Assembly (NCBI RefSeq): GCF_027913035.1
Contig: NZ_CP115777.1
Span: forward strand, 47,650-111,649
DNA length: 64,000 nt
From: Paracoccus albus
GTDB taxonomy: Bacteria > Pseudomonadota > Alphaproteobacteria > Rhodobacterales > Rhodobacteraceae
Reading direction: 5' to 3'
This document shows positions 7,427 to 31,383 of this stretch, piece by piece. Both the position numbers and the translations under genes were made by a program. The number at the start of each line of letters is the position of its first letter. The stretch's first letter is position 1. The notes under the pieces are model-generated. The model was given only the letters and a program-made list of their open reading frames with translations. It had not been told where the DNA came from and ran no database searches.

Positions 7427-7799
7427 AGCCCGCGCTGATGCGCGGGCTGCTGTCGGCCGGGGGATTCGGCCAGAGGCCGAACGCCCCGGCTATGCGTGGG
7501 CCACGTCACGCTGACGCGCGCCGCGTCCTGGATAAAGGGCCTGTTCCGGCCCTCTTTCCAAGGGGTGGGTCCTCGCCATGCTCGCTTCCTCCACCTGCGC
7601 CTGGCGGCTTCGGTTCCGTGCAGCTGCGCGTGGCTCCGGTCCCGGCTTCGCCGCCCTTGGAAATTCACCGGCCCGGTTCGCCACCTGGCAAGGCTTCAGG
7701 AGAGGGCGCGCTGCGCGCTTCTCGCCTGAAACCTTCGCCCATTATGGGCACCCCGACCGAGGCAAAAGACCAAGGCGGGAACGTCGCGAAAAAAGGAGA
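7427..7799. repeat. Duplicated leader R2, copy A
   Basis: About 373 bp are repeated at 11955-12326, in the same orientation and nearly identical. Each copy begins with a 9-bp hairpin (AGCCCGCGC/GCGCGGGCT, the loop differing between copies) and ends exactly at the ribosome site GCGAAAAAAGGAG of a gene. Copy A precedes the operon starting at 7805; copy B precedes ardC. The differences do not preserve a common reading frame, so I treat it as an untranslated leader or promoter module. Confidence 0.85.
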
Positions 7800-7804
7800 T
7801 TAGA

Positions 7805-8071
7805 ATGGTTCTCTTTGAATTTTACGCCATGACCGACGATTTCGGCATCTGCCGCGATGCCTGCGATGATCTGGAAAGCTGGATCGCGGCCAATGACGCC
7901 GAAATCACCGGCTATGTCGATGATCCCCTCGCCAGCAAGGAATTGCAGGGACTGCCGAAGCTCAGCGGCTGGATCGGCCCGATTGTCGGCCCCAATGCCT
8001 TCGGCCTGACCCCGGTTATTCAATATGCCGATACCTGGGCCGTCCGCGAAATCGACCGCGTGGGGGCATGA
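7805..8071 (+). CDS. Hypothetical protein, first gene of the five-gene cluster
   Basis: The 88-residue acidic protein (MVLFEFYAMTDDFGICRDAC) has no motif I can name. The start follows AAAAAAGGAG, the end of leader R2. Its stop overlaps the next start (ATGA). It belongs to a tightly packed run of five genes ending with a DNA methyltransferase. Confidence 0.7.
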   Translation: MVLFEFYAMTDDFGICRDACDDLESWIAANDAEITGYVDDPLASKELQGLPKLSGWIGPIVGPNAFGLTPVIQYADTWAVREIDRVGA

Positions 8072-8277
8072 ACATGGCCGCTTTCGACAAGCCCATCACC
8101 GCCAGCTTTGACCTGGCCGAGATCTCGGCCATCCTCGCTGGCCTGCGGTTGCTTCAAGGTTCCAACCGGGTGCCGGCGCCGATCACCGAGATCATGACCA
8201 ATGGCGGCGACATTGACCCGCTATCGCTGGATGAGATCGACGCGCTTTGCGAGCGCATCAACGGCGGGGATATGTGA
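8068..8277 (+). CDS. Hypothetical protein, second gene of the cluster
   Basis: The product is 69 residues, acidic and predicted helical (SFDLAEISAILAGLRLLQGS). It begins with an ATG overlapping the previous stop by four bases and ends in TGATG, sharing one base with the next start. No family is recognised. Confidence 0.65.
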   Translation: MNMAAFDKPITASFDLAEISAILAGLRLLQGSNRVPAPITEIMTNGGDIDPLSLDEIDALCERINGGDM

Positions 8278-8750: not shown

Positions 8751-9199
8751 GCCCCATTTCCTTCAACGGACTTTCGGCGGGGGATAGCCCCGCCAGCTTC
8801 CGGCGCTTCTGTGTTTCGCCCGTGCGGATCGAGCGCGGCAACCACTATGATGAGGCCATCGAGGTTTGCCCCCCTGCGGAACGCGCCTTCTGGTCGATCT
8901 ATGGCGACACCGGCCAAGGCTGGCAGCTTGTCCATGATGCCCAGGACGGCGAGGCTGGCCGCGCCCTGCTGGCGCTTGAGGTCGCGACCGGCGCACCCGT
9001 CCACTATGTCGATTGCGACTGGCGCAGTACCGGCGGGACTGTCGCGGGGCTGGCCGACCGACTGGCCGAGCGCATCCATGACGAGATCCCCGGATATGAT
9101 GGCCCCGAGGATTTCCGCGATGACGATTTCGAAAATCATCCGCTGGCCGAGCTGCGCGAACTGCTGCTGGATGCCACCAACGGGGAGGATCAGAAATGA
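8747..9199 (+). CDS. Hypothetical protein, fourth gene of the cluster
   Basis: The product is 150 residues, acidic, with Trp- and Asp-rich segments (AFWSIYGDTGQGWQLVHDAQ) and an acidic C-terminus. No family recognised. Start and stop are coupled to both neighbours by ATGA overlaps, so the cluster is almost certainly one transcript that also makes the methyltransferase. Confidence 0.65.
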   Translation: MSPISFNGLSAGDSPASFRRFCVSPVRIERGNHYDEAIEVCPPAERAFWSIYGDTGQGWQLVHDAQDGEAGRALLALEVATGAPVHYVDCDWRSTGGTVAGLADRLAERIHDEIPGYDGPEDFRDDDFENHPLAELRELLLDATNGEDQK

Positions 9200-10632
9200 A
9201 CGCCCCGCTGTCCTTCAATGCAGGGGCGCTTGTCGCGCCCCTCAACATCGAGGCCATTTGCATGATGCGCGAACGCGCGCTGTCCGAGATGGAAGAGGCT
9301 ATTGCCGCTATTGCGAAGGGCTACGCCCTCGCGCGCGGCGCGGCCGAGACCGCCAAGGGCGCGACCGCCGGTCACGCCTCTTACCTGCACTACGACGACA
9401 ACCAGACCGTCGAAAAATCCCTCTATCCCGATTTCGACACCGAAAAGACCTTCGCCACCTACAAGCGCACCCTGGATGCCGCAATCTGGCGCCGCATCGT
9501 CGAGGAAACCCGCCTCAAGGAAATCATGGACCGCACCGAACGCGACCAGCTCGACAAGCAGATGGCCGCAAACGACATGCCGGAACCGACATTCGAGACG
9601 ATCCGGGCCACCCTCGCCCGCCTGACCGGCGAGGCCAACCTGATCTTTCAGCGCGGCGTGGCGCGCGCCTTCGCGTCACTGTCGCCCGCCTTCAAGAGCC
9701 ACGACGCCTTCAAGATCAACAAGCGCATGATCTTCGAATGGGTGTTCAGCGAAGGGGGGTACTGGTCCTATTCTGGACATGGCGAACAGATGCGCCGCAC
9801 CTTGGCCGACGTTGAGCGGGTGTTTTCGCAGCTTGCCGGCAACCGGACCTATGGCGCGCTTGAGCACGCCATCGAGGTTAGCCGACGCGGCCGCTACGGC
9901 GCACGGCAGGGCGAGGTCGAAAGCGAATATTTCCTCGCCCGCACCTTCAAGAATGGAAACCTGCATCTCTGGATCAAGGATGAAACCCTGTTGCGGAAGG
10001 TGAACCGCGTGCTGGCCGATTATTACGGCGAGGTGCTGCCCGACGCCGCCGGCGCCGAGGCGCAGCCCGCCGATTTCTGGCCGGGCACCGCGCTTGCAAA
10101 GGATCTGGCCTTCTATCCGACCCCGGCCGAAGTCGTCGACTACCTGCTTGACGGGCTGCGGATCGAACCGGGCGCGCGGATCCTGGAACCAAGCGCCGGC
10201 GTCGGCGCGCTCGTCCGCCCCCTGCTGGCGCAGGGCGCGAACGTCGACGCGATCGAGGTCCATCCCGACCGGACCGAGGCTCTGCGCGGCATCGCCCACC
10301 CCGCCCTGAGCGTGAAATGCGCGAACTTCCTGAAGCTGCCCGCCCGGCCGGTCTATGATTATGTCGTCATGAACCCGCCGTTCGCCGGGACACATTTCAT
10401 GAATCATCTGAGGCATGCCTTCGACTTCCTGAAGCCGGGCGGCGAGCTGCGCGCGATCCTGCCCGCCTCTGCCGAGGTCGGCAGCACCGCAAAGCACGAA
10501 CGCTTTCGGGCATGGGCCGAGAGCCATGCCCCGCGCGGCTGGCGGCGCGGTCTCTGGCGAGACCTGCCGGCCGAGAGCTTCGCCAGTGTCGGCGTGCGCA
10601 TCAATACGGTGGTCCTCACCCTGACAAAGTGA
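9196..10632 (+). CDS. DUF4942 / N6-adenine DNA methyltransferase
   Basis: This 478-residue protein has two parts. Residues about 130-275 match the DUF4942 module seen on plasmids and phages (FEWVFSEGGYWSYSGHGEQM). From about 305 onward is an S-adenosylmethionine methyltransferase: motif I is EPSAGVGAL (331-339), an acidic strand end IEVHPDR follows, and the catalytic NPPF is at 393-396, typical of N6-adenine methylation. It should methylate DNA in the cytoplasm without a restriction partner nearby. A role in protecting the plasmid from host restriction, alongside ArdC, is inference. It is the last gene of the coupled five-gene cluster and is followed by a terminator. Confidence 0.85.
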   Translation: MNAPLSFNAGALVAPLNIEAICMMRERALSEMEEAIAAIAKGYALARGAAETAKGATAGHASYLHYDDNQTVEKSLYPDFDTEKTFATYKRTLDAAIWRRIVEETRLKEIMDRTERDQLDKQMAANDMPEPTFETIRATLARLTGEANLIFQRGVARAFASLSPAFKSHDAFKINKRMIFEWVFSEGGYWSYSGHGEQMRRTLADVERVFSQLAGNRTYGALEHAIEVSRRGRYGARQGEVESEYFLARTFKNGNLHLWIKDETLLRKVNRVLADYYGEVLPDAAGAEAQPADFWPGTALAKDLAFYPTPAEVVDYLLDGLRIEPGARILEPSAGVGALVRPLLAQGANVDAIEVHPDRTEALRGIAHPALSVKCANFLKLPARPVYDYVVMNPPFAGTHFMNHLRHAFDFLKPGGELRAILPASAEVGSTAKHERFRAWAESHAPRGWRRGLWRDLPAESFASVGVRINTVVLTLTK

Positions 10633-11906: not shown

Positions 11907-11954
11907 CCAATGGCGATCGCATCGCCCTGCAACTACTGCCGATCAGGATCTGGT

Positions 11955-12326
11955 AGCCCGCGCCTATGCGCGGGCTGCCGTCGGCCGGAGGATTCGTCCG
12001 GAGGCCGAACGCCCCGGCTTTGCCTGGGCCACGTCACGCTGGCGCGCGCCGCGTCCTGGATTGAGGGCCTGTTCCGGCCCTCTTTCCAAAGGGTGGGTCC
12101 TCGCCATGCTCGCTTCCTCCACCTTCGCCTGCGGCTTCGGTTCCGTGCAGCTGCGCGTGGCTCCGGTCCCGGCTGCGCCGCCTTTGGAAATTCACCGGCC
12201 CGGTTCGCCACCTGGCAAGGCTTCAGGAGAGGGCGCGCTGCGCGCTTCTCGCCTGAAACCTTCGCCCATTATGGGCACCCCGACCGAGGCAAAAGACCAA
12301 GGCGGGATCGTCGCGAAAAAAGGAGG
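11955..12326. repeat. Duplicated leader R2, copy B
   Basis: Second copy of 7427-7799. It ends in the ribosome site of ardC. An open frame runs through it into ardC, but the frame is not conserved with copy A, so ardC is annotated from the ATG after the leader. Confidence 0.85.
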
Positions 12327-12333
12327 CCACAAA

Positions 12334-13232
12334 TGGCAACTTTCGATCTTTACCAGACCATCACCGACCAGATCATCCGCAGCATTGAGGCAGGTACGCC
12401 CGCATGGCGCAAACCATGGACCGGAGAAGCGGGCGGCGCACCTTTTCCGCGCCGCGCCAATGGCGAATATTATCGCGGCATCAATGTGCTGATGCTCTGG
12501 CTGGCCGCCGAGGAAAACGGCTATCGCAGCGCCTATTGGTTCACCTATCGCCAAGCGCAGGAGGCAGGCGGGCAGGTCCGCAAGGGCGAGAAATCATCAA
12601 CCGTTGTGAAATATGGCACGGTTGATCGCAAGGACGAGGACACCGGCGCAGACAAGCGCGTTCCATATCTGAAAGCCTATCGTGTTTTCAACGCCGAGCA
12701 GATCGACGGATTGCCGGCGGATTTTCAGGCGAAGCCTGCCGATCCTGCCCGCGACCTTGGCACCGAAGCCGATGCCGAGCTTGACGCATTCTTTGCCGGG
12801 ACGGGTGCCGATATTCGCCACAGTGACGAGCCACGCGCCTATTACGTCCCCGGCGAGGATTACATCCACATGCCGCCCGTCGCGACGTTCCACAGCGCAA
12901 GCGGATATTATGCGACCCTTGCCCATGAGGCGACGCACTGGACCGGCCATAAGTCGCGGCTTGATCGCTTTGGCCGCTTCAATGACCGGAAAGCTTATGC
13001 GTTCGAAGAACTGATTGCCGAGATCGGAAATTGCATGGTTTGCGCGAGCCTTGGCCTCACGCCCGATTTCGACCAGTCAGCCGCTTATCTGAAAAGTTGG
13101 TTGCGCGCATTGGCCGACGACAAGCGCCTGATCTTCAAAGCTGCATCAGAAGCACAGAAGGCCGCAGATTGGCTGCTGAAAGCCAAGCCAACTGTTGAGA
13201 CCGACGCCACCGAAGACAGGGCCGCCGCGTGA
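12334..13232 (+). CDS. ardC: ArdC-family antirestriction protein
   Basis: The 299-residue product fits ArdC. The N-terminal single-stranded-DNA-binding domain (about 1-125) starts FDLYQTITDQII and has the conserved AWRKPW and YRGINVLML. The C-terminal zincin-like metallopeptidase domain has HEATH at 198-202 and the third-ligand region FEELIAE. ArdC is known from conjugative plasmids, where it protects incoming DNA against host restriction. The start at 12334 follows AGGAGG; the much longer open frame upstream is the duplicated leader. A small gene follows 22 bases later. Confidence 0.92.
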
Positions 13233-14298: not shown

Positions 14299-14979
14299 CT
14301 AGTGACCTTTGGATGATAACCATGCGTCGAAATGCGGCAGAAATTGTGCCCGCGCCCATCGTGACATGGGGGCTTCGATGCCGGTCATTGCCTCCGGATC
14401 GATCTCTTTCGCCAGCCGGTCATAGGCGGCCTGGCTGATCATCATGGATGTGTCAAACGGGTGGCTGGCATCCGTCATCCGCTCGCTTGGCACTTCTGTG
14501 TATTCGATGCCCGCCTCGATCCGCTCAATCAGCTGCGGACGCAACTCGCCCATGGCCTTGCGGAAGACCGCGCTGACCGGACAGCGGGCTTTTTCCGCAC
14601 AGGCTGTTGCCCGTTCGGCCAGGTCGGTCGGGCAACGGAATGTGACGCGCAGCTTGACATTCGGCCCCCTGTCCGCTTCGACCGTCGCCTTCATGTCCTC
14701 AGTGGTCTTGCGAGGCTCTTGAGTTGTTGAACTATCAGGGGCTGATTTTGGTTCAGATGCCGTGATCGGTGCGGAAACCACTGTACGCTGCGCCAGCTCC
14801 TTCGGTTTTTCGGCTGGCTTCGGTGTCGGAGCTGATGCTTCCGCCGATTTCTTCGCTGGCGGCTTGGGCGCGGGTTTTTCGGCCGGGCGCGGGGCTTCCA
14901 CTGGCTTTGCAACATCGAGACGAGCCGCAAAACTGTCATCGCGCTTGAGAACCATGCCACGATCCTTGAGTTTAGCCAT
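14299..14979 (-). CDS. VirC2-like tandem ribbon-helix-helix DNA-binding protein
   Basis: A 226-residue protein in two halves. The first 110 residues are rich in Pro, Lys and Ala and probably disordered. The second half reads as two RHH units: KLRVTFRCP then helices TDLAERATACAEKAR and PVSAVFRKAMGELR; and FDTSMMIS then QAAYDRLAKEI and SRWARAQFLPHFDAWL. VirC2 of Ti plasmids is a tandem RHH protein encoded beside VirC1, the same order as here. The stop of the ParA-like gene overlaps this start by one base (TGATG). It is my candidate for the protein that binds the heptamer array at 15698-15999. Confidence 0.65.
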   Translation of the reverse strand: MAKLKDRGMVLKRDDSFAARLDVAKPVEAPRPAEKPAPKPPAKKSAEASAPTPKPAEKPKELAQRTVVSAPITASEPKSAPDSSTTQEPRKTTEDMKATVEADRGPNVKLRVTFRCPTDLAERATACAEKARCPVSAVFRKAMGELRPQLIERIEAGIEYTEVPSERMTDASHPFDTSMMISQAAYDRLAKEIDPEAMTGIEAPMSRWARAQFLPHFDAWLSSKGH

Positions 14980-15695
14980 CAGCTGTTCTCCTTGATGATG
15001 GTATCAAACTGATCGAGCAATTCGCCCATTTCGGTCAGGCCTGGTGCGATTGATTGCACGAGGCTTCGGTTCGGGTGCTTGTCACGGATGACGCCCAGAA
15101 GCCCGGTGTCGTTCATGCGCTCGTAGCAGGCCCGGTCCAGCACGAAATCTTCAAGTGTCGGCAGCGTCTCGAACATGATCGCGATCTGCGTCTTCGCGGA
15201 TTCGCTGATCGATTTGCCGACATGGCTTCCGACCACACGAAATGGCGGCACATGATCGGGATCATCGACGCGGGTCTTCAGTTTTTCATGCCAGATGCCG
15301 GTTGAAGTGGTGTCGCGCACATCCTGCGATGACAGGCGGCAGGGCGAGACGATCAGATGCGCGGTCATCGCCATTTCGTCATGCGCTTCTGATCCACCGC
15401 CGAAAGTATCGATCAGGATCAGGTGATTCTCGTCCGGCCCTTCGTATAGTGACTGAATGTCCTCAAGCACCTTCTCGGCGCTCAATGTGCCGATCACATT
15501 GATCCGGTCATGCCAATAGCCCTGGCTGCGCGCTTCGTTCATCCATTCAGCGATGCCCTGGTTGCTGTCAGTGTCGAAGATCGTCACACGCTCGCCTCGG
15601 TCGATGGCCACAGAAGCAAGACCGCGCACGAGCGTCGATTTTCCGCAGCCACCTTTCTTGTTCATGACTGCGATGATTCGTCTGCCTGTGCCCAT
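14979..15695 (-). CDS. VirC1-like ParA-family ATPase
   Basis: A 238-residue deviant-Walker ATPase: KKGGCGKST at 13-21, FDTDSNQGIAEWMNEA, and the Walker B region LILIDTFGGGSEAHDEM. The GGGSE motif and the spacing resemble VirC1 of Ti plasmids more than chromosomal ParA. VirC1 recruits the relaxosome to the coupling protein; ParA relatives segregate plasmids. The divergent neighbour is the mobC-relaxase operon, which supports a transfer role. Its start codon lies three bases from the first heptamer of the array. Confidence 0.8.
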   Translation of the reverse strand: MGTGRRIIAVMNKKGGCGKSTLVRGLASVAIDRGERVTIFDTDSNQGIAEWMNEARSQGYWHDRINVIGTLSAEKVLEDIQSLYEGPDENHLILIDTFGGGSEAHDEMAMTAHLIVSPCRLSSQDVRDTTSTGIWHEKLKTRVDDPDHVPPFRVVGSHVGKSISESAKTQIAIMFETLPTLEDFVLDRACYERMNDTGLLGVIRDKHPNRSLVQSIAPGLTEMGELLDQFDTIIKENS

Positions 15696-15697: not shown

Positions 15698-15999
15698 TGC
15701 GCTATCCGTTCTGCGTGATGCGGTGTCCTTGATGCGTAACACGATAACCGAAAAGCGACAAGCGCTGTACCGCAAACGCGATACAGTCTCCTAGATACGC
15801 AATACGTTAAGAAATATGCCGCATGCGGGATACGTGCTCCAATTTGCGAACTGCTACAAACGACCTGCGCGGTGCAACAAACGTTATGCGCGATGCGTGA
15901 TGCGATATAAAATGGCAGGCGCTGAGCAAAAGTGGCTGCAACATACGACATACGAAATCCAACAAGCAACATCCGTAAACCGTACTGCGCGATCCGTTG
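15698..15999. repeat. Heptamer array, candidate centromere or overdrive-like site
   Basis: Reading in steps of seven from 15698 gives 30 consecutive heptamers up to 15907 without a phase break (TGCGCTA, TCCGTTC, TGCGTGA, TGCGGTG and so on). The consensus is T-R-C-G-N-N-A. C is at position 3 in 29 of 30, G at position 4 in about 22, and A at position 7 in about 21. After a weak stretch the array resumes one base out of phase from 15937 (TGCAACA, TACGACA, TACGAAA, TCCAACA) to 15999. It fills the space between the divergent VirC1-like and mobilisation operons. Confidence 0.8.
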
Positions 16000-16334
16000 T
16001 TGGTGCCGGAGCTAGGTCGCACGGAGAGGGCGCGTGGGGCCTGCTGGCGGGGTTTGGCTATCACCCCTGCGGCTTGGTCCTGAATGGCCCTCTGACGGCG
16101 CTCTGCGCGCGCCTGAAGCGGTGTCGCGATGGCGACACTCCCTTGGGGGTAAGCAAACGGACCATATGTGCCGCACCGAGCAACCGCTGCGATCGCCTCA
16201 ATCGACGCAGCCTACGGCCGCGATTTCCGATTGTTTGGTGGGCGATCTTGGGTTACTCTGGCACATATGGGGAAGTGGCAGGAAATGCGGAATGTTTACA
16301 AAAAAGTCTCGCGGCCATCGTCAGGAGAATGTTA
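16000..16334. other. Candidate origin of transfer region
   Basis: This region lies directly upstream of mobC and the relaxase and holds a perfect 11-bp inverted repeat, CCATATGTGCC at 16162-16172 and GGCACATATGG at 16260-16270. oriT sites usually lie beside the relaxase operon and contain inverted repeats. I cannot identify a nic site by sequence. A ribosome site AGGAG precedes mobC. Confidence 0.45.
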
Positions 16335-16880
16335 ATGGCGCGTAAATCGCTGACGAAAGACCAGAAAGCGGAGGCGATCCGGCAACTGAAGGCTGGCGGC
16401 ACAGTGTCGACGGTTGCCGATGCTGTCGGGGCCGAGCCGGAGGCGATCAAGAAGGAAAAGGCCCTCAAACTGCGTCAGTCAGAGGCCACCACGACCTATG
16501 GCAGCGCCGTTGCGGTGCGGCTGTCGCCTGAAGAATTGCAGCAACTGGACCGGCTGAAGGATGTTCTTGGCACGGATAGCAGGTCGGAAGTGCTGCGCAC
16601 CTTACTGCGTTCGAGCGTCGGGATGCTTGAATTTCCGCCCGAGCAGGCGGCGGAACTTGAGGCAATCAAGCACGAACTGCACAAGATCGGCGTCAACATC
16701 AACCAGATCGCCTTCGCCGCGAATACCCGCAAGATCAAGCTTGCCAAGGGACAGATGCATGCCCTGGACGATCTGCGGCTCACCATGCCGAAGGTGCGCA
16801 CCTTCCTTCAGGCTGTGGTGAGCGAGCAGCGCCGGCGAGGAGTGCGGCTCTTCAAGGCATTTATCGAAGGTGAAGCATGA
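16335..16880 (+). CDS. MobC/VirD1-like relaxosome accessory protein
   Basis: A 181-residue protein with an N-terminal helix-turn-helix-like stretch (KAGGTVSTVADAVGAEPEAI). An RHH-like segment follows (VAVRLSPEELQQLDRLKDVL and SEVLRTLLRSSV), then the MobC signature IGVNINQIAFAANTRKI (about 115-131). MobC-type proteins help the relaxase open oriT. The start at 16335 follows AGGAG; longer in-frame starts would run through the candidate oriT. The stop overlaps the relaxase start (ATGA). Confidence 0.82.
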   Translation: MARKSLTKDQKAEAIRQLKAGGTVSTVADAVGAEPEAIKKEKALKLRQSEATTTYGSAVAVRLSPEELQQLDRLKDVLGTDSRSEVLRTLLRSSVGMLEFPPEQAAELEAIKHELHKIGVNINQIAFAANTRKIKLAKGQMHALDDLRLTMPKVRTFLQAVVSEQRRRGVRLFKAFIEGEA

Positions 16881-18715
16881 GCCGGGGCGGTCTGGCATCA
16901 TCTCTGATAGGCGAGATCGAGCTTCCGGTCTGGAGGGGCGCGGTGCGGGGCGGCAGTTACCAGCCGCCGAAGCCAAAGGTTTCCGGAAGGGCTGCTGGCC
17001 TGTGGCGCGTTGCCCAGGGCTCGAACGCGGCGGTGCTGAAGAAGATCCACAACGGCGGCACCCATACCAGAAAGCAGCTTGGCAATCAGCTTGATTACCT
17101 GTTCTCCAAGGCGGCGGCTGTGTTCGGGAACATGGCCGATCTGGACCCTCGTTCTCGTACGCTGGACGGCGATCAGCGCAAAGCTATCGTCGAGCAGTGG
17201 TCGGACGAATGGACCGGCGATCCGAAGAACGGCCATACCACGCATCTGCTGGTGTCCTTTCCCTTTGACGTGAGCGCTGAACGCGCCCGGCCGGTTGTAG
17301 AGGAATGGTGCATGGAGATGTTCCAATCCGGGTTGCATTCCGATGGCGAGGAGTGGGCCTATGTTGCGGCCCTGCACACGGACCGGGTCAACAATCATGT
17401 CCATGTCGTCGTGAATAACCGTGGGGTGGAGAACGGTGACTGGTTCTTCATGGCGAAGGACCACGCTTTCAACCTCGATTTTATGAAGGAACGCCTAGTG
17501 GAAATCGCCGGCAGCCAGGGCATGTTTCTGGACAAGAGTAGCCGCCTGGATCGTGGCGTGCTGACCTATGGACCGTCACGGGCCGAGATCGAGCGAGCCG
17601 CGCGAGAAGGTCGTGAGCCTGTTGAGGCCCGCCGGCAGGGCAGGGCGCTCAGCGATGCGCTTGATCATATCCAGCGCAATATCGAAACGCTGCGCAGTCT
17701 AGCAGTCATTGCCACCCTTATCAGCGATGAGGGCTTGGCGCAGAAGATCGAAGCCGCGGCCGACCTTCTTGAGCAGGGCGGCATCATCAATCACCGAAAT
17801 CAGGAGATCGTCATGGACGCAGAAACTATCCGCAATCGCGGTGATCTGGCCAATGCCTTCGGCAATTGGCTGGATGAAAGCGAGACCGACATTTCGCGCC
17901 TGCCCTTGCAGGAGCAGCGCGAAATGCGTGATGAATTATACGGCATTGCCTCGGAGATCGTGCGCGATCTGGGCGATAATCGCGGCGCGCAGCTGATGCA
18001 CCACGCCCCGCGCACGCCGGTCTATCAGGCGCAGATGGACGGTGATCGCATCACCGTTCAGGACAAGCACAAGGTCATCGGGCCGGATGGGTCGAAGGAA
18101 ATGACAGCACAGATCGGCGCGGCCGCAGAGAAGGCAGGTCTCGATCCGAGCGTGATCCAGTCCCGAATGGAGATCGGCGCCGCGAATGCCTGGCAGGAGC
18201 GCGAGTGGATCAAGGCCGATATTCTGGCTGTGGCCGACGCGAAGAAGATCGATCTGTCTTCCGAGGACGGGCGTGGCAGGGCGGCCGATCTGGTCGATAC
18301 CTTCTATGCGGCTGCTGCACGCACGATTTCCCGCGCGGTGCCGATCGAGCAGGAGGCCATGAACGACAAGCTCACCCGCACCTTGTCTGCAATGGCCGAT
18401 GTTCACGCCCAGCATGGCAAGGTCGAGTTTCAGAACGACGAGCACGCCGCGCGCTTCGGGGCCGACTTCCGTGAACGCTATGGTGAGAATGCCATGGCGC
18501 GGATCGCGACGGGCGACACCAACGCCCTGGCCGTCGATTTCCCTGATGCCGGTCAGCGTCGGGCAATCGCGCGTGCTGTGGCAGCGGCGGGTGAAGCCCA
18601 TCAGTCGGTCGGCATGACACTCGCACAGACCCGGCAGGTCAAAGAGAAGATGGCCGCGCAGGAGGCTGACGAGCATCACGTTTCGCGCCGCAAGGATCTC
18701 GGTCACGAGTTGTAA
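16877..18715 (+). CDS. VirD2-type relaxase (MOB-P group)
   Basis: A 612-residue protein whose first 230 residues form the relaxase domain. The metal-binding histidines are in ALHTDRVNNHVHVVVNNRG (H167, H174, H176), matching the VirD2/MobA pattern. A tyrosine likely to attack the nic site is Y74 in QLDYLF. The rest is helical and may contain the secretion signal. It should nick oriT and pilot the strand through the VirB/VirD4 channel encoded downstream. Coupled to mobC by an ATGA overlap. Confidence 0.88.
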   Translation: MSRGGLASSLIGEIELPVWRGAVRGGSYQPPKPKVSGRAAGLWRVAQGSNAAVLKKIHNGGTHTRKQLGNQLDYLFSKAAAVFGNMADLDPRSRTLDGDQRKAIVEQWSDEWTGDPKNGHTTHLLVSFPFDVSAERARPVVEEWCMEMFQSGLHSDGEEWAYVAALHTDRVNNHVHVVVNNRGVENGDWFFMAKDHAFNLDFMKERLVEIAGSQGMFLDKSSRLDRGVLTYGPSRAEIERAAREGREPVEARRQGRALSDALDHIQRNIETLRSLAVIATLISDEGLAQKIEAAADLLEQGGIINHRNQEIVMDAETIRNRGDLANAFGNWLDESETDISRLPLQEQREMRDELYGIASEIVRDLGDNRGAQLMHHAPRTPVYQAQMDGDRITVQDKHKVIGPDGSKEMTAQIGAAAEKAGLDPSVIQSRMEIGAANAWQEREWIKADILAVADAKKIDLSSEDGRGRAADLVDTFYAAAARTISRAVPIEQEAMNDKLTRTLSAMADVHAQHGKVEFQNDEHAARFGADFRERYGENAMARIATGDTNALAVDFPDAGQRRAIARAVAAAGEAHQSVGMTLAQTRQVKEKMAAQEADEHHVSRRKDLGHEL

Positions 18716-20041: not shown

Positions 20042-20305
20042 ATGCCAAAAAGGAACATGCCGTCGCGGCAGTCAACCGGTGGCGCTGAGCGCAATGCGGA
20101 CCACAAAGAGGTCCCCATTCAGGTAATGGTCCCGGAAGCGATCCGGCGGCAAGTAGCACTCATGGGAGCGGATCGGGGCGAAAATATCAGGACTGTAGTC
20201 TTGCGGGGCCTGCGCGCGATAGGTATCGACATCCCTGAATCGGAATTCGGTGACCGCCGCGGTCGCCACCGCAAGGACAGCGGAGGTGGCAATGGCGCGC
20301 AGTGA
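20042..20305 (+). CDS. Small RHH-like protein in front of ietAS
   Basis: An 87-residue basic protein with a central segment that reads as a ribbon-helix-helix: VPIQVMVPEAIRRQVALMGA then NIRTVVLRGLRAIGI. Its C-terminal tail is rich in Gly, Arg and Lys. The ribosome site is weak and a TTG at 20015 is an alternative start. The 3' end overlaps ietA by 14 bases, so the two are co-transcribed. A repressor role for the ietAS operon is inference. Confidence 0.6.
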   Translation: MPKRNMPSRQSTGGAERNADHKEVPIQVMVPEAIRRQVALMGADRGENIRTVVLRGLRAIGIDIPESEFGDRRGRHRKDSGGGNGAQ

Positions 20306-21323
20306 CCTTCTAATCAACTTGGTGAAGTCTGGGGCCAGCGGCGATAAACATACGCTCGGCAAGATCGTGGATGCCATTGTCGCGGAAGAACGGGCGAAGA
20401 ACCACAACATCGTCGCAGACCGGATCGAAAAAGCCTACCGTTTGAGCGACAGCAACTGGAACGGAAAGGCGGCGACACTGATGAATGCGCACAGCTCCGA
20501 GTCAAACGCGAGGGCGCGTGACTTCATTGCGGAAGTGAAGCCGCGACGGCGTTTCGAGGAACTCATACTCCCCGAAGTGACGATGACTGCGGCGCAACAA
20601 CTCGTGGAAGAGCAACAGCGCGCCAGCTTGCTGCGCTCACACTCGCTCGAACCCCGGCACAGCGCCTTGCTTGTCGGGCCACCCGGCAACGGTAAGACGT
20701 CGCTGGCGGAAGCGATCGCGGAGAGTCTCGCGGTGCCGTTCTTTGTCGTGCGCTACGAGACGATGATCGGCAGTTTCCTGGGCGAGACGGCCAGCCGGAT
20801 GAAGCGCGTCTTCGACTATGCCCGCACCACGCCCTGCGTTCTGTTCTTCGATGAATTCGATACGGTCGGCAAGGAGCGCGGCGACACGCACGAGACCGGT
20901 GAAATCAAACGCGTCGTCACTTCGTTGCTCCTGCAGATCGATGACCTGCCGAGCTATGTCGTGATCCTCGCAGCCACGAACCATGCCGAACTCCTCGACC
21001 GCGCGGTATGGCGTCGCTTTCAGCTGCGGCTTCCGCTGCCGTCGCCAACACAAAAGCAGATCGCCTCCTACCTCACCGCGCTTAGCGATCGCTCGGAACT
21101 CAAACTCGGCGCATCGCCGCAGCAAATTGCCAAGAGCCTTGGCAAGGTGAGTTTCAGCGAAGCGGAAGAGTTCTTCCTCGATCTGGCCCGCCGGCAGGTC
21201 CTGGCCGCCGGAGAAGAAACACCGGCACAGATCGCGAAGCAGCAATTGAAGATTTGGGCGTCCCGCGTCCTTGGACCCTTGACGCAAAAGCAGGACGATA
21301 ATGCCGGAACGCCCACTACTTAA
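20292..21323 (+). CDS. ietA: IetA-like AAA ATPase
   Basis: A 343-residue AAA+ ATPase: Walker A GPPGNGKTS (129-137), Walker B VLFFDE (183-188), sensor-1 region LAATNHAEL and an arginine motif RAVWRRFQLRL. It overlaps the following S8 protease gene by 23 bases. This AAA-S8 pair is known on the Ti plasmid as ietA-ietS, where IetA acts as antitoxin to the protease and the pair stabilises the plasmid. The same pair was later listed as an anti-phage system. Its placement in a plasmid backbone between toxin-antitoxin and conjugation genes fits either role. Confidence 0.85.
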   Translation: MARSDLLINLVKSGASGDKHTLGKIVDAIVAEERAKNHNIVADRIEKAYRLSDSNWNGKAATLMNAHSSESNARARDFIAEVKPRRRFEELILPEVTMTAAQQLVEEQQRASLLRSHSLEPRHSALLVGPPGNGKTSLAEAIAESLAVPFFVVRYETMIGSFLGETASRMKRVFDYARTTPCVLFFDEFDTVGKERGDTHETGEIKRVVTSLLLQIDDLPSYVVILAATNHAELLDRAVWRRFQLRLPLPSPTQKQIASYLTALSDRSELKLGASPQQIAKSLGKVSFSEAEEFFLDLARRQVLAAGEETPAQIAKQQLKIWASRVLGPLTQKQDDNAGTPTT

Positions 21324-23880
21324 ACTGCCCGAACCGACGCCTTTCGATCCCAGGCCCGGCCCGCGCGGCGGTGGCAATCTTGCCAAACCGCAACGCGACA
21401 GGCAGGGCGCGCGCATCGGGCCGCGTTTCGAGCGGCTCATGCGGGTAGCGGGCAATCCGCAGGACCTGATAGCCCTACAGGACGACCCTGCGTCAATCGC
21501 GCCAGAGCGCGCAATCGTGTTCGAACTCGCGGGCCAGCTCAAAGATTTCTATACACAGGCTCAGGAACTGGGGCTCGAATATCTCGGCGACTATGAAGAG
21601 GATATCGAGCCCGACGAAGACTTCCACGACCGAGACAAGCCCGAGAAGACGATCGCAGGCCGCATCTATCTCGCTATGCCGGACGTGCGCGCCTTGCAGG
21701 AACTGCTCGGACTCTGGCGGCGCTACCAGCACGGCGAGAAAATGCCTACCGGCAAGTCCCAGTGGCGCGAACTCTTCTCTCTGCTGGTCGATGTGAGACC
21801 GTGGGCACCGCAGGACCGAGTGCTGCCGGAAATGATCGAGTATTGGCGCGAGTCCCTGCACTACAATCCCGATGCGCCGGTCCGCTTCGAGATCGAACTG
21901 TGGTTTCACGAGAATGGCGAACAGCGCAATCGCGCCTTTGCGCGGGTTGAAGACGAGGTTCACCGGATGGGTGGCGAGATCGTCCATCATGCCACTTTGC
22001 CGGAAATCCGCTATGACGCGGCGCTCGTCGATATTCCGCCGGATCAGGCACAAAGGCTGATCGAGCACCCGGATATCGAACTCGCCCGCGTGGACGAGAT
22101 CATGTTCCTGCGCCCGCAATCCGTAGCGCGCTTCGAACAGGATGCAGAGCCTGAAGGCGAAGATGGTGCCGAAGACGCCGCTGCGGCGCTGCCTGCGGGC
22201 AACCCGATTGCCGCCCTGCTCGACGGGCTGCCTATCCAGAATCACATCAGGCTCGCGGGACGCATCATTGTCGATGACCCCGACGACCTCGACGCCAACT
22301 ACCCGGTCAACCGGCGGGTTCACGGCACCGAGATGGCGTCGCTGATCGTTCACGGCGATCTCACTGCCGGAGAAGCGCCGCTGGAAAATCCGCTGCTCGT
22401 GCTGCCGGTCATGCAGCCTGACGGCGGGAACTCGGAACAGACCCCGCCCGACCGGCTTCTGGTCGATGTGATTCACCGCGCCGTTAGACGGATCAAGGCA
22501 GGCGACGGCGACGAAGCGGCTACCGCGCCGGACGTGGTGCTGATCAATCTCTCGCTCGGCGACCGTTGGCGTCCCTTCGCCCGCGTCATGAGCCCGCTCG
22601 GGCGGCTGCTCGACTTTCTGGCGCATCGCTACCGCGTCCTGTTCCTAGTCAGCGCCGGCAATGTACTCGACCGCCTCGTAATCCCGGACTACCGGACATC
22701 ACGGGAATTCGAGGATGCGGACCCGGAAGAGCGCGAAAAGGCGATACTCGCGGCCCTGAACGCAAACAAAAGCCAGCGCACGCTCTATTCGCCGTCTGAA
22801 TCTGTGAACGCCGTAACAATCGGCGCCGCACACAAGAGCGCCATAGCCAACGGCGGCCTGCCTGCGAACCTGATCGACCCGTTCACCGACGAGCGGCTGC
22901 CGAACATTGTCTCGGCAATGGGCCTGGGATACCGCAAGGGCGTTAAGCCGGACCTGCTCTTCGCGGGCGGACGCATGCCGGTGCGCGTCGTGGCAACGGG
23001 CGACAGCGTGACCATCGCCCCTGCGGATCGGCCAGCGCGTCTGTTTGGAGCACGGGCTGCAGCGCCCGACCGCGTCGGCGGAACGCGCCATGAAGACTTC
23101 ACGTGCGGCACGAGTGTCGCGACCGCGCTGGCAACGCGCGCGGCTCACCGCATCTACAATGTGCTTATGAACGGCGCGGAAGGATCAAACCACGATGACC
23201 TGCCCCTGAACTACCGAGCCTTGGCTCTGAAAGCCCTGCTTGCCCACGGGGCAGAATGGGGACCGAAAGGCGCAATGCTCGACGACTTTTTCCAACCGCA
23301 TGGCCAAGGATCGCATTTCGCGCGGCGCGATGACATAGCGCGGCTACTCGGCTTCGGAGTTCCCGATATTGAAAGGGTACTCGACTGCACGGAAAACCGC
23401 GCAACACTGCTTGGCATCGGAAGCGTCGCCGCTGATAGTGCGCTGCTCTACCGTATTCCCATTCCGGGCGGGCTCGACGGCCAGCGGGCTTTCCGTGCGC
23501 TGACTGCAACGCTTGCATGGTTTACTCCGATCAACGCCCGCCACCAAGGCTATCGCCGGGCCGCCCTCGATATCAGCCCCGGCACAGACGAGAAATACTG
23601 GATCACCGATCAGCGCGAGTCCTATCAACCGACTGACAAGGCCATTGTCCGCGGCACATTGCTTCACGAGCGCCGGACAGGTGAACGAGCAGCGGTTTTT
23701 GTCGACAATGGCGAACTGCTGCTACGCATTTCGTGTCGGGCAGTCGCCGGTGAGCTCAACGAAGAAATCCCCTACGCTTTGGCAATTAGCTTCGAAGTCG
23801 GCATCGAAGCCGGGATTCCGGTCTATGAAGACATTCGAGCGCGTATCGCTCCTCAGGTCGGTATCGGTGTGGGTGGATAG
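21301..23880 (+). CDS. ietS: IetS-like subtilisin (S8) protease
   Basis: An 859-residue S8-family protease with no signal peptide, so cytoplasmic. The triad is readable: D308 (AALLDGLP), H341 (RRVHGTEMASLI), S605 (TCGTSVATALA), and the oxyanion Asn is N454 (LVSAGNV). The first 290 residues are a helical and acidic domain typical of IetS-like proteins and probably hold regulation or target sensing. The last 150 residues form a beta-rich domain. In the Ti plasmid system the protease is the toxic partner and is restrained by IetA. All catalytic residues are intact, so the system should be active. Confidence 0.85.
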   Translation: MPERPLLKLPEPTPFDPRPGPRGGGNLAKPQRDRQGARIGPRFERLMRVAGNPQDLIALQDDPASIAPERAIVFELAGQLKDFYTQAQELGLEYLGDYEEDIEPDEDFHDRDKPEKTIAGRIYLAMPDVRALQELLGLWRRYQHGEKMPTGKSQWRELFSLLVDVRPWAPQDRVLPEMIEYWRESLHYNPDAPVRFEIELWFHENGEQRNRAFARVEDEVHRMGGEIVHHATLPEIRYDAALVDIPPDQAQRLIEHPDIELARVDEIMFLRPQSVARFEQDAEPEGEDGAEDAAAALPAGNPIAALLDGLPIQNHIRLAGRIIVDDPDDLDANYPVNRRVHGTEMASLIVHGDLTAGEAPLENPLLVLPVMQPDGGNSEQTPPDRLLVDVIHRAVRRIKAGDGDEAATAPDVVLINLSLGDRWRPFARVMSPLGRLLDFLAHRYRVLFLVSAGNVLDRLVIPDYRTSREFEDADPEEREKAILAALNANKSQRTLYSPSESVNAVTIGAAHKSAIANGGLPANLIDPFTDERLPNIVSAMGLGYRKGVKPDLLFAGGRMPVRVVATGDSVTIAPADRPARLFGARAAAPDRVGGTRHEDFTCGTSVATALATRAAHRIYNVLMNGAEGSNHDDLPLNYRALALKALLAHGAEWGPKGAMLDDFFQPHGQGSHFARRDDIARLLGFGVPDIERVLDCTENRATLLGIGSVAADSALLYRIPIPGGLDGQRAFRALTATLAWFTPINARHQGYRRAALDISPGTDEKYWITDQRESYQPTDKAIVRGTLLHERRTGERAAVFVDNGELLLRISCRAVAGELNEEIPYALAISFEVGIEAGIPVYEDIRARIAPQVGIGVGG

Positions 23881-24110: not shown

Positions 24111-26036
24111 TCACCCGCCAGGAACCTTCGCCTTCATCTTCTTTCGGAAATCCGACGCCTTCTTGATAACTTCCATGTCCGAGGGACGCAGGGCCTCCCG
24201 CGCCTCGTCATCTGTCATGGCGGGTTGCGCTGCCTCCACCTCGGCGATGAGCGCCTTGGCGGTGTTACCCGGCGGCGGTGGCGCATAGGGCAGCGGGCGG
24301 AACTGCGCCACCTCGCTTTGCAGCTTCTCGATCTCGACACGCATCGACCTGATCTGGTGCCGCTCATCGGGATACGGCAGTGGCCCGGACTGCGCTGCCA
24401 TGATTGGCGAAAAATGAGGATCTTTGAAATACTCGATGCGATCCGCCAGAATCGGGTTTTGGCGCTCGGGAATCAGGATGATTTTCGCGGCATTGAGCTT
24501 CCTAACCTCATCTACGCTCATCAGCGGGCGCTCTTCATTCCGCCGCGATACAGACCGCCGGAGGAGCCCTCGACCGTCAGAGGACAGGCTGTCGCTTACG
24601 GAGAGGCGAGTTGTCTTGCCCAGTGCCTCAGAAACTTCCCCGGCGGTCTTTTTCTCATTTGGGCTGATAAATGCCTTGATGCCAGCTGCGGATTCAATCG
24701 ACATGCGATCATTCTCGCCATAGTGCTTATCGAGTCCAGGAATAGATTGCGTGATAATCGACACGCGACCACCGTGGCCTGCCAGCTGCTTAAGCGACTG
24801 CACGACGATTGGCATCGTGCCTAATTGGTCAAACTCATCGAGGATTATCTGGACCGGCCAAGGCTCGGTCTTAGGGTTCGGCAGCGACGCTCGTAGGGTG
24901 GCGATCAACTCGCCGAACAGCAGGCGCATCAGCGGCGCAAGGGTGATAATGTCATCGCTGTTGACCACGATATAGACCGTCTGGGGCTTCATTCGGACGT
25001 TCTGCCAGCTGAAGTCATTGCCGCTGGTGACGCGATCAACTGTCGGGTTAACCCAGAGTCCAAGCCCCGCGCCCTTCAGGACCGAGACATAGGAAGACAG
25101 GGTGCGGTCGGCATAGCCGCTGAAATCCGTAAAGATATCTTTTGTTTGTGCATGACGAGCCTCGGCTGCACGCAGCTTGTATTCCTCGGACTTGTCAGCA
25201 CCGCCGAAGAGGACGCGGGTAATTTCTCCAATGGTTGGCTTCCCACGCTCAATGGCAAGCATCCCGCCGGCGACGAACAACTCACGTGCGCCGACGATGA
25301 AATCAGTAGCGCCGCCCTTCTCGCTGGTGGTCAGGAAATAGGTCGATAGCTTGCTCAATTCCGTGAACTGCTGATCTGTATTCTTCAGGGCGGCAATGCG
25401 TTCCAGCGGATTGTAGCGATGCGAGGGGTGCTCGAAGTCGAAGGGTGCGAAATAGAAGATCTCGTCACCCTCCGACTGGCGGTGGCGGGACGTGGCCTCG
25501 AAGATTTCACCCTTCACATCGAGAATGACGCAGCTGCCCGGAAACAGGAGCGTGTTCGGGATGACATACCCGACGCCCTTGCCCGCGCGCGTCGGGGCGA
25601 CAACCAGGCAATGCGGGAACTTGTCGTAAGTGGCCGAAACGAAACGCCGAAATTTGAAGATTTTCCCTATCATTCCGGCGCGCGGGATTTTGCCGAAGAC
25701 AAGCCCATTACCAACCTTTTTAAGCAGACCGTTGCGCTTGATCTCTGCGGGGCCTTGAAAATGCGCGGTTCCGTACCCCGTAAGCTGCGGGCCAATGGCA
25801 AGCAGCGCGACAAATACTGCCATGATGCCCGCACCATACAGGCCGAACAAATAGCCCGTCCGCCAGGGCTCTTGCGTCATCATCGACCAGCTGGGGATTG
25901 AATGAACCAGCAAAAGCAGGTCGGTGTCCTGAATCGGGCTACCGAGCCGCCTCGTGACCCAGAAAGCCCCAAGCATCAATCCGATGAACGCGCCGCCGAG
26001 CATGCCGAATGGCAAAAGGACCAGTGTGCGGGTCAT
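24111..26036 (-). CDS. virD4: Type IV coupling protein
   Basis: A 641-residue inner-membrane ATPase. Two transmembrane segments lie at the N-terminus (LVLLPFGMLGGAFIGLMLGA and about residues 62-80). Walker A is in VVAPTRAGKGVGYVIP and Walker B in IILDEFDQLG. It should bring the relaxase-DNA complex to the VirB channel. The start at 26036 (MTRTLVLL) follows the virB11 stop by one base; a longer start would overlap virB11. It ends the virB transcript. Confidence 0.93.
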   Translation of the reverse strand: MTRTLVLLPFGMLGGAFIGLMLGAFWVTRRLGSPIQDTDLLLLVHSIPSWSMMTQEPWRTGYLFGLYGAGIMAVFVALLAIGPQLTGYGTAHFQGPAEIKRNGLLKKVGNGLVFGKIPRAGMIGKIFKFRRFVSATYDKFPHCLVVAPTRAGKGVGYVIPNTLLFPGSCVILDVKGEIFEATSRHRQSEGDEIFYFAPFDFEHPSHRYNPLERIAALKNTDQQFTELSKLSTYFLTTSEKGGATDFIVGARELFVAGGMLAIERGKPTIGEITRVLFGGADKSEEYKLRAAEARHAQTKDIFTDFSGYADRTLSSYVSVLKGAGLGLWVNPTVDRVTSGNDFSWQNVRMKPQTVYIVVNSDDIITLAPLMRLLFGELIATLRASLPNPKTEPWPVQIILDEFDQLGTMPIVVQSLKQLAGHGGRVSIITQSIPGLDKHYGENDRMSIESAAGIKAFISPNEKKTAGEVSEALGKTTRLSVSDSLSSDGRGLLRRSVSRRNEERPLMSVDEVRKLNAAKIILIPERQNPILADRIEYFKDPHFSPIMAAQSGPLPYPDERHQIRSMRVEIEKLQSEVAQFRPLPYAPPPPGNTAKALIAEVEAAQPAMTDDEAREALRPSDMEVIKKASDFRKKMKAKVPGG

Positions 26037-26037
26037 T

Positions 26038-27057
26038 TCAGTGTCCCTTATGCTGATCGTTGGCCAGGTCGTCTTCAAGTGCGGGGAAATAGGTTTCAAG
26101 AATGCCGCGTTGCTTGCCGATCCGGCCGGTTTGAATAATCACATCAATCGAATCGCTGATGTACCGGGAGATTTCCGTCATGGTCAGCGGCATCCCCGCC
26201 CTCAGAACGAGGAAGGCGAGCCGATTGACGGCTTTGCGGGCCGTTGTGGCATGTACCGTCGTAAAGCTGCCCTCATGTCCTGTGTTGATGGCTTCGAGGA
26301 AGGTCAGGGCTTCGGCGCCACGCAGCTCGCCAAGAATAATCCGGTCAGGCCTGAGGCGAAGCGTCATTTCCAGCAGCTTGTCAGCCGATCGTTCGGAATC
26401 CCTGATCCGGTCGGCCAACAAGCCGACGACATTCGGCTTTGCGGGCAAGAGCTCTGACGAATCTTCAATCAGCACCAACCGTTCCCATTCGGTCACCATC
26501 CACAACAATCGACGCCCGAGCTCCGTCTTTCCCGCGGAGGTGCCACCGGAAATCAGAATATTCATCTTTTCTCTGACACATTCACGCAGGAAATCGTCGG
26601 GATCAGGTGACGTGAGGGCCAACTTCTGGATATGCGCTAGCTTGTCATGGCGCTCTTGCTCCAGTGACACGCTCTGATCACGCAAGAACGCGAACCGGCG
26701 AGGCTCAACACCGCCCGGTCGGCGTCGGAATATCCGGAACGACAGAGTTGGACCTATCGCTGCCGCAGGGCGCACAATGGCCTGGCATCGCAATGTTACA
26801 CCGCGATATTCGATCGTCGTAGAAATCGCCGGCTGCTGCTCGGTTAGTGTTAAATCTTGCGTGTTTGCGATGACCCCTGCCAGATCATGCGCCTGATCCA
26901 CTGTCAGCGTCAGGTCTGCCCTTGTCATCACCGCGTCACCGGCTCGCTCAATCCAGACGTGCCCATCAGGATTAACTGCAATTTCGACCGTGGCTTCATC
27001 GCGCAAGTACGGATCGAGAATACTGAGATCATAATCGAGATAGTTTTCCGGCTCCAT
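26038..27057 (-). CDS. virB11: T4SS secretion ATPase VirB11
   Basis: 339 residues. Walker A GGTSAGKT (171-178), the Asp box around VLIEDSSELL, Walker B IILGELRGAE and the His box GHEGSFTTVHA are all present. It is a hexameric cytoplasmic motor for pilus assembly and substrate transfer. The start ATG shares one base with the virB10 stop (TGATG). Confidence 0.95.
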   Translation of the reverse strand: MEPENYLDYDLSILDPYLRDEATVEIAVNPDGHVWIERAGDAVMTRADLTLTVDQAHDLAGVIANTQDLTLTEQQPAISTTIEYRGVTLRCQAIVRPAAAIGPTLSFRIFRRRPGGVEPRRFAFLRDQSVSLEQERHDKLAHIQKLALTSPDPDDFLRECVREKMNILISGGTSAGKTELGRRLLWMVTEWERLVLIEDSSELLPAKPNVVGLLADRIRDSERSADKLLEMTLRLRPDRIILGELRGAEALTFLEAINTGHEGSFTTVHATTARKAVNRLAFLVLRAGMPLTMTEISRYISDSIDVIIQTGRIGKQRGILETYFPALEDDLANDQHKGH

Positions 27058-28433
27058 CACAGCATTTCCAAGTCTGTGTTGACCATGACCATCACCACAG
27101 CACCCTGATCAATGCTGATTGTCGTCGGGATGTCGATGTAGTCCTGCATCATGCCAGCGACGCTGTCGCTCATGTTCTGGCCGAGGTTTTCGGCGGTGTC
27201 CGACGAAATTTCCCCGTCTTCCTCGGATTCAACAGCCGCCGCCAAAAGTGACGGCGCCGCTGAAATCAGCGACACGGCCGCCGCCGCCGCGAAGCGACCA
27301 AATGTATGGTTGTTCACGCGGCCTGTCAGGCCGGAGCGCCCTATGCGGTCAGTTCCATATGCTGCCATCACGACCGATTGCCCGTCCGGGGTGACAAGGC
27401 GATCCCAGGTCACCAGAATTCGACGCTGGCCTTTGTCTACGGACGAGCTGTACCGACCAAAGATCTTTGAGCCCCGAGGAATGACGACGTTGCTCATGTC
27501 CATGGACCAAACATCATAGGAAACAGTCGCGGATACGTTGCCTTCGAGCTGTGACGAAATGGCGTTGGACAGGGTTGCCTCGATCAGTGTGCCCTGAATC
27601 ACTGTACGGCTGGGGTCCGCGACAATTTCGGCCTGCGTGACGTCAGCACGCCCTGCCGACGCTCGACGAAACGCCTCGGCATCGGATTGGCTGCCCTCCT
27701 CGGGGAGGTCTTCTGTTGTGCCGCCGCCGGCAGAGCCTCCACCTGCGCGATAGGCCACCATAGGCGACTGCGTTCGCGCCTCTAGTTCGGCTTCTGCCGC
27801 AGCCCGACGCGCCGCGTCTTCTGCCCTGCGTTGTTCGAGCGCAATCAACCGCTGCGCTTCTGCGTCAGCGGCCAGTCGGTCCTGCTCGGCCATCATCGAA
27901 GCCGTGTCGAGTTCCGTTTGAAGACGCAAATTATCGCGCATCATTTCATCATAGGCCTGATCGCGCAGATCCGCCTCCGAACGCATTGCTTCCAGCTCCA
28001 GCCGCAGCTCATCTAGTGCCGAAGTGTCTCCCTCGGCTGCGCGCGCTTGCGCCAGGTCGTTCCGAAGCCTTTCAAGTTCTTCACGGGCACTGTTCAATTC
28101 CGCCAGTGTTGCTGGATCGGCCTCGGTTCGAACTTCGATCTGAGGTGCCGGTGCTTCCTCCCGAACCGGAGTTTCGTCCTCGTCGCGGGTCACGGTAAAT
28201 CCATCCAACCCCAGACCATCCTGAAACTCGCTGACCTCCGCCGTCGGCATGGTTTGCCCATCTGGACGATTAGCCTGCATCTTGACTGCCACATATCCGC
28301 CGGCGCCAAGGCCTATTGCAAGCATCACAGCAGGAAGTACGGCCTTGCGCAGGCGCGACTGTTGTCGTGCCTGTGGTTTCAGGCGCTTTAGGCGCTCCGC
28401 CACAACAGGGTTTTCACCATTGTTATCAGTCAT
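27057..28433 (-). CDS. virB10: T4SS core protein VirB10
   Basis: 458 residues: a cytoplasmic N-terminus, one transmembrane segment (about 32-50), a long coiled-coil and Pro/Glu-rich periplasmic region (about 60-215), and a C-terminal beta-barrel domain with VIPRGSKIFGRYSS and GRVNNHTFGRFAAAA. It spans both membranes and senses ATP use by VirB11/VirD4. The start at 28433 is coupled to the virB9 stop (TGATG). Confidence 0.95.
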   Translation of the reverse strand: MTDNNGENPVVAERLKRLKPQARQQSRLRKAVLPAVMLAIGLGAGGYVAVKMQANRPDGQTMPTAEVSEFQDGLGLDGFTVTRDEDETPVREEAPAPQIEVRTEADPATLAELNSAREELERLRNDLAQARAAEGDTSALDELRLELEAMRSEADLRDQAYDEMMRDNLRLQTELDTASMMAEQDRLAADAEAQRLIALEQRRAEDAARRAAAEAELEARTQSPMVAYRAGGGSAGGGTTEDLPEEGSQSDAEAFRRASAGRADVTQAEIVADPSRTVIQGTLIEATLSNAISSQLEGNVSATVSYDVWSMDMSNVVIPRGSKIFGRYSSSVDKGQRRILVTWDRLVTPDGQSVVMAAYGTDRIGRSGLTGRVNNHTFGRFAAAAAVSLISAAPSLLAAAVESEEDGEISSDTAENLGQNMSDSVAGMMQDYIDIPTTISIDQGAVVMVMVNTDLEML

Positions 28434-29823: not shown

Positions 29824-29857
29824 GATTGCCTCCTAAATTCAGATACTTATGGACCGT

Positions 29858-30850: not shown

Positions 30851-31383
30851 CAGTATTCTCCGCACATGACGGCAACGATCTCGACACCTTCTTGGTAGAG
30901 CTCGTAAACATCTTCGGTGTGCTGTGGCGTCAAAACGTCAACGCCATACTTATCGCGGAGCTCGGCCTCAAAGAGCGAAATCGGAAGATCGGCGATGACC
31001 TTGGCGGCGCAGGTACAGTCCTCCGTGGTAATGACGTTCGTCACTGACAGATAGCCAGAGATATCGCGATAAGCACGATCACCCGGCGCGCCGTCCTGAT
31101 GGGCACGGAGTTCTGGCGTTTTCTCGCAGAGCCGATAGGGCACGTTTTGCCTAGCCGACGGCACCCGTTCCACGCCCGACACATCCACCTCAGGGGCTAG
31201 CGATGTGGACAGATAGTCCTGTTCGGCCGCCAGATCAGCGTCGGGTGGGATCAGCTCGCCAATATTCACCCCGAATTGATCGACCGGCTCCGCTGCCGGA
31301 TCATTATCGCCCATCTGAGCATAAGCCAGCCCGACCGCGACAAGGGCGGCCGTCCCGATGCTAAACGCTACCGTCCGTTTCAT
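30850..31383 (-). CDS. Secreted T4SS-associated protein of unknown function
   Basis: 177 residues starting MKRTVAFSIGTAALVAVGLA, a Sec signal peptide with cleavage near YAQ-MG. The mature protein contains several Cys residues (LCEKTPEL, DCTCAAKVI, MCGEY), so disulfides are likely. It sits between virB5 and virB6, where entry-exclusion or lipoprotein genes are found in other systems, but there is no lipobox. I do not recognise the family. Confidence 0.65.
   Translation of the reverse strand: MKRTVAFSIGTAALVAVGLAYAQMGDNDPAAEPVDQFGVNIGELIPPDADLAAEQDYLSTSLAPEVDVSGVERVPSARQNVPYRLCEKTPELRAHQDGAPGDRAYRDISGYLSVTNVITTEDCTCAAKVIADLPISLFEAELRDKYGVDVLTPQHTEDVYELYQEGVEIVAVMCGEY

Follow-up and report, generated by a model that had tools for sequence, protein, structure and literature searches.

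What does a long, strictly periodic stretch of DNA contribute when it lies between divergent genes for a VirC1-type ParA ATPase and a relaxase? The question is raised by a 64,000-nucleotide stretch of Paracoccus albus (NZ_CP115777.1, positions 47,650 to 111,649; hereafter the window), in which 39 heptads span 302 bp between such genes. We consider that this array is a cis-acting platform for a VirC1/VirC2-type relaxosome helper, a reading to which we assign a probability of roughly two in three, and that it probably serves as a docking strip that organizes DNA transfer. The features on which the argument depends are as follows.

15698 to 15907, unstranded: block 1 of the heptad array, 30 contiguous units, consensus TRCGNNA on the plus strand
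15937 to 15999, unstranded: block 2 of the heptad array, 9 units, shifted by +1 against the phase of block 1
14979 to 15695, minus strand: VirC1-type ParA ATPase gene (PF07015, 3.2e-20, 72.9 bits against a cut-off of 24; tree)
14299 to 14979, minus strand: gene for a VirC2-like protein of 226 residues (predicted fold)
16335 to 16880, plus strand: MobC/VirD1-type relaxosome accessory protein (PF05713, 5.5e-6; RHH_1, 8.8e-5)
16877 to 18715, plus strand: MobA/VirD2-like relaxase (PF03432, 2.4e-8)

The heptad array

The initial annotation of this DNA, made from its letters, had described 30 heptads in a single phase, with C at the third position of 29, and a second block one base out of phase; counting the units reproduced both. 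In block 1, the first position was T in 22 of the 30 units, the second A or G in 25, the fourth G in 21 and the seventh A in 21. The third position was C in all nine units of block 2, and in the 29-base gap between the blocks the in-phase units all scored 3 bits or less. The consensus fitted better in the forward direction in 37 of the 39 units and better reversed in two (15768 and 15817).

The periodic array was confirmed by autocorrelation. Over 15698-15999, identity at lags 7, 14, 21 and 28 exceeded that at other lags by 0.216, compared to a mean of 0.000 (sd 0.015) and a maximum of 0.053 in 5000 dinucleotide shuffles. Elsewhere in the window, the highest value for any 210-base stretch was 0.060. 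Tandem Repeats Finder picked up fragments of the array only, because its units are degenerate. The array begins just 2 bp away from the virC1-type start codon, and 335 bp separate it from mobC. An extended mobC frame (15816-16880), which would extend over the candidate origin of transfer (oriT) and some of the array, was rejected: relatives carry single-base indels there, and mobC of P. sediminicola is annotated from a downstream start.

The genes flanking the array

Pfam searches matched the divergent VirC1-like and MobC/relaxase genes that had been proposed to flank the array. PF07015 (VirC1) ranked above every other Pfam family for the 14979-15695 protein, supporting its assignment as a VirC1-type ParA. 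The 14299-14979 protein matched no Pfam family up to an E-value of 0.1, PF07181 (VirC2) included. The first 100 residues of its predicted structure are of low confidence and are followed by two strand-helix-helix units in one chain (residues 107-156 and 171-223), for which VirC2 was the best fold match. The model thus portrays a single-chain, VirC2-type tandem ribbon-helix-helix (RHH) protein with a flexible N-terminus, in agreement with the RHH protein of the annotation.

Profile comparison of the partner proteins connected the window type to the other 7-bp type at 97%, and that type to the VirC2/8-bp type at 94%; compared directly, the window type gave 81% with A1 and 29% with A3. As sequence searches of the PDB with RHH alignments found no credible relative (the best, at E 0.04, was an ATP synthase subunit), the VirC2-like identity rests on fold and profiles. 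One relative, L090, has VirC1 (2e-78) and VirC2 (Pfam 6e-18; 2rh3 match 2e-15) together with virD4, mobC, a relaxase gene and an octamer array.

Arrays in related plasmids

Among the 21 annotated plasmid records compared, a profile test found mobC or a relaxase gene divergent from the ParA gene in 17 and found none in L013, L022, L085 and L086. PLSDB types six of the 21 as non-mobilizable, although their locus includes mobC or a relaxase gene. Of the first 18 relatives scanned, 15 had a 7-bp array and Paracoccus sp. MC1862 an 8-bp array; L020 gave a weak 8-bp signal and L022 nothing at 7 or 8. Plasmid pTAV1 of P. versutus also bears a relative (L011). Surveys with PF07015 across 385 alphaproteobacterial genomes and with the window protein across 295 genomes of the family added 30 and 29 best-match loci, respectively, a sample skewed to close relatives. 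After three duplicates were dropped, 86 loci were scored, and those with mobC or a relaxase gene divergent nearby were termed linked.

A 7- or 8-bp array was present at 44 of the 48 linked loci (35 and nine, respectively) and at nine of the 38 unlinked loci (six and three). Fisher's test gave 5e-11 for this association, a statistic that ignores the kinship of the loci. The period was kept in related plasmids. The first set of periods (7, 8 and 11) was blind to 9-bp arrays, and the loci were rescored with periods 5-14, against thresholds set at the 99.5th percentile of 523 stretches from other parts of these records (the L085 array falls in one of them), with a floor of 0.10; all 48 linked loci then passed some threshold, as did 15 of the 38 unlinked loci, and the period-14 harmonic scored highest at 11 heptad loci. 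The linked loci with no 7- or 8-bp call were L078, with a strong 9-bp array (0.381); L084, with an 11-bp signal (0.121); L088, with a 9-bp signal at threshold (0.14 against 0.137); and L020, with a 12-bp signal barely above it (0.135 against 0.126).

For the 44 linked loci with a 7- or 8-bp array, merged array windows measured 295-620 bp, and the partner proteins translated from linked loci had about 185-272 residues (except L019, 136 as annotated). The short 7-bp arrays at unlinked loci L089, L092, L096 and L114 measured 195-255 bp, and their partners had 97-101 residues. L089 (G000:C5:1291-1500) lies on the 37-kb contig C5 of the same strain as the window, where a second ParA gene is accompanied by a short 7-bp array; with its partner of 97 residues, this ParA seems to form an ordinary pair for partition. 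This partner had no Pfam hit, and the single-RHH call for the short partners was made by eye. In L085 (Ochrobactrum pLM19O2, 821-1023), 29 heptads separate mobC from a gene for an apparent single-RHH protein, a call made by eye; the protein had no Pfam hit at 0.001. There is no adjacent ParA gene at L085, and the array seems to accompany an RHH gene rather than ParA.

Two further arrays were observed. L124 has a 33-unit 9-bp array (7793-8089), flanked on one side by a border-like sequence and on the other by a VirC1-type gene. In L009 (P. sediminicola p1), the array upstream of ParA contains 14-bp double units (period 14 score 0.526), which look like a recent expansion.

ParA phylogeny and drift of the units

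In a tree of 86 ParA sequences, 49 fell on one side of a 99/94 branch. Forty-seven of these were from linked loci, 35 with period 7, nine with period 8, one with period 11, and two (L020 and L078) with no call at 7, 8 or 11. The remaining two, the heptad loci L013 and L053, were counted as unlinked, the L053 contig ending early. L088 was the sole linked row on the other side. The window ParA grouped with the relaxosome-linked VirC1 side, as did L090, and not with the partition ParAs. The earliest branches on this side bore 8-bp arrays plus one 9-bp array, and the heptad group, which includes one 8-bp row (L017), was nested within it. The tree was rooted at its midpoint and several long branches meet, and hence the direction of period change is tentative.

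The unit consensus differed between lineages while the period stayed. On visual comparison of the window with five close relatives, the flank between array and mobC was more conserved than the array itself once L009, L007 and L010 were included.

The candidate origin of transfer

Between the array and mobC we identified a candidate oriT, with the following elements.

16162 to 16172, unstranded: left arm of an 11-bp perfect inverted repeat (sequence)
16260 to 16270, unstranded: right arm of the same repeat (sequence)
16276 to 16299, plus strand: T-DNA-border-like TGGCAGGAAATGCGGAATGTTTAC, candidate nic site, by comparison with the border consensus

The candidate nic site is 279 bp from the array. 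Twenty-three bases, AAGTGGCAGGAAATGCGGAATGT, were identical in six aligned sequences (the window and five relatives). Of 29 inspected loci, 18 had the motif GGCAGGA no more than 250 bp from mobC (the mobC start being approximate for genome loci), compared to 133 of 4282 (3%) single-strand 250-base control stretches of the loci. At L087, L090, L106 and L078 its context reads GGCAGGATATAT, which resembles the T-DNA border. By analogy with such borders, the nick is predicted on the minus strand between 16278 and 16279, and the virC1 side would enter the recipient first; the ArdC-type gene at 11910-13232, on that side, would fit a leading region.

Transfer genes and replicon

The remaining transfer and replication genes in the window are listed below.

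24111 to 26099, minus strand: VirD4-type coupling protein (PF02534, 4.7e-88)
26038 to 35805, minus strand: type IV secretion genes of VirB11, VirB10, VirB9, VirB8, VirB6 and VirB4 type (Pfam T2SSE, TrbI, CagX, VirB8, TrbL and CagE_TrbE_VirB; six frames of the stretch profiled)
61809 to 62972, plus strand: RepA, partition ATPase of the replicon's own repABC (64% to pBM151 RepA; AAA_31)
63043 to 63885, plus strand: RepB, ParB-type (profile and sequence matches)

The window is the terminal part of the 111,649-base contig C3, with RepA and RepB at its right end, and RepC was matched at the contig start (G000:C3:108-1310). From these positions, the simplest reading is that C3 is a circular RepABC plasmid whose sequence has been opened between repB and repC. 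Between the relaxase and virD4 genes, an AAA ATPase gene overlaps a subtilase-type peptidase gene (20250-23880), possibly as an accessory or defence pair. The virC1 side also has a DUF4942/methyltransferase gene (9196-10632); genes similar to it and to the ArdC-type gene recur near the locus in relatives.

Proposed role of the array and alternatives

In Ti plasmids, VirC1 with VirC2 promotes relaxosome assembly and polar recruitment, and overdrive is bound by VirC1 (PMC4949242, PMC4285021, PMC8716806). We propose that the tandem-RHH protein would coat the array side by side, one molecule per 7-bp unit, and that the coated array would be recognized by the VirC1-type ATPase. The ATPase would then bring MobC and the relaxase together with the border-like oriT, at a distance of about 280 bp, stimulating nicking, and the assembled complex would be passed to VirD4/VirB. 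Binding would also repress the adjoining virC1-virC2-like operon.

A broader suggestion, which we advance tentatively and regard as doubtful, is that VirC2-type tandem-RHH proteins read the spacing of the array and not a fixed word, that an array with a border-like oriT is the ancestral form, and that the Ti overdrive was reduced and moved from such an array. Spacing recognition would accommodate unit sequences that are lineage-specific, with a period of 8 (one of 9) on the deepest sampled branches and 7 in the large nested group.

Direct tests for selection on phase gave weak results. Indels in the array showed no excess of multiples of 7, in a test that was uninformative. Weighing against the platform reading, substitution depended on phase in three of 12 heptad pairs, a weak signal from one clade, and did not in the one octamer pair. 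The first alternative is that the array is a partition centromere like the pSM19035 heptads, with the relaxase genes incidental or secondary beneficiaries, or else a dual site as in R388 stb. The arrangement of ParA gene, RHH gene and upstream array matches omega/delta; ParA activation in pSM19035 needs at least four contiguous heptads (PMC9499535), and here there are 30 and nine; and stand-alone ParA loci with partners of about 100 residues, including that on contig C5, bear short 7-bp arrays. In R388, the direct repeats bound by StbA act on both conjugation and stability (PMC3098194). We nevertheless consider a centromere unlikely, as it is weakened by the presence of RepA, RepB and RepC on the plasmid (and likewise on pBM151), by the relaxosome-linked ParAs forming their own clade, one row excepted, and by the VirC2-fold tandem predicted for the RHH protein.

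Alternatively, MobC might coat the array as a part of oriT, with the VirC1/VirC2-like pair uninvolved. MobC has its own RHH_1 match, and the L085 heptads adjoin mobC with no ParA gene next to them. This is quite improbable, however, given that the other neighbour of that array is the apparent single-RHH gene, that L013 and the stand-alone ParA loci have arrays with no adjacent mobC, and that the array of the window abuts virC1, not mobC. A role as an operator alone, autoregulating the virC1-virC2-like operon with no part in transfer, would suit an array placed immediately upstream of the start codon, but is very improbable considering that arrays are linked to mobC and relaxase genes and that simple RHH operators need far fewer than 39 units. 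A chance artefact or a translated heptad-repeat peptide can be dismissed, since, although 10 of the 53 arrayed loci had at least one frame open across the trimmed array, the window and the 42 others had none, relatives have periods of 8 and 9, and the shuffles exclude chance.

Significance and comparison with known systems

To our knowledge, work on how VirC1/VirC2 find DNA and on how overdrive acts has been confined to Ti plasmids. The long array, its period kept at almost every sampled locus where the helper pair lies opposite a relaxase operon, offers a concrete, testable DNA target. It connects partition-type ATPases with the decision to stay or to transfer, and provides a sequence-independent marker for oriT regions of alphaproteobacterial plasmids. 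In the part of the literature covered, we recognized no paper that reports arrays of 7 or 8 bp next to virC1. The extracts of a paper on Paracoccus plasmids contain virC 0 times (PMC3832669), and Dinoroseobacter plasmids with virB, virD2 and virD4 have been described (PMC4886583). Partition proteins of NAH7 act on transfer and oriT (PMC12421886).

Among known systems, R388 stbABC is alike in having a ParA-like StbB, a DNA-binding partner, StbA, and direct repeats (stbDRs) by oriT; it differs in that the repeats are 9 bp with 2-bp spacers in two sets of five, and the authors detected no homology between StbA and proteins of the ParB type (PMC3098194). The annotation's divergent MobC/relaxase genes with VirB/VirD4-type genes stood in Pfam searches, whereas its view that nothing comparable had been described is weakened by stb, even though those repeats are not heptads. 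The F plasmid differs, as we know of no ParA partner or long array for its relaxosome accessory protein.

The delta/omega parS of pSM19035 likewise combines an RHH protein with back-to-back 7-bp units ahead of a ParA-type gene. Here, by contrast, the neighbourhood is that of a relaxosome and the unit consensus is other than that of omega. The partner is a predicted tandem RHH of 226 residues in one chain and the units run largely in one direction, whereas omega is a dimeric RHH partition protein with heptads of mixed orientation (PMC9499535).

The Ti system resembles that of the window in its ParA-type VirC1, the tandem-RHH fold of VirC2, the divergent VirD1/VirD2-type genes and a cis element in the vicinity of a border-like nick site (a candidate one in the window), and the plasmid whose VirC2 passes Pfam (L090) bears an octamer array. 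The window partner is not a Pfam VirC2. Overdrive, an annotated element (PMC11351099), is short and immediately adjoins the border, minimal regions of 24 bp and native ones of 83 bp being used in plant vectors (PMC13277942), whereas the element described here is a 302-bp array set well apart from its candidate nic site.
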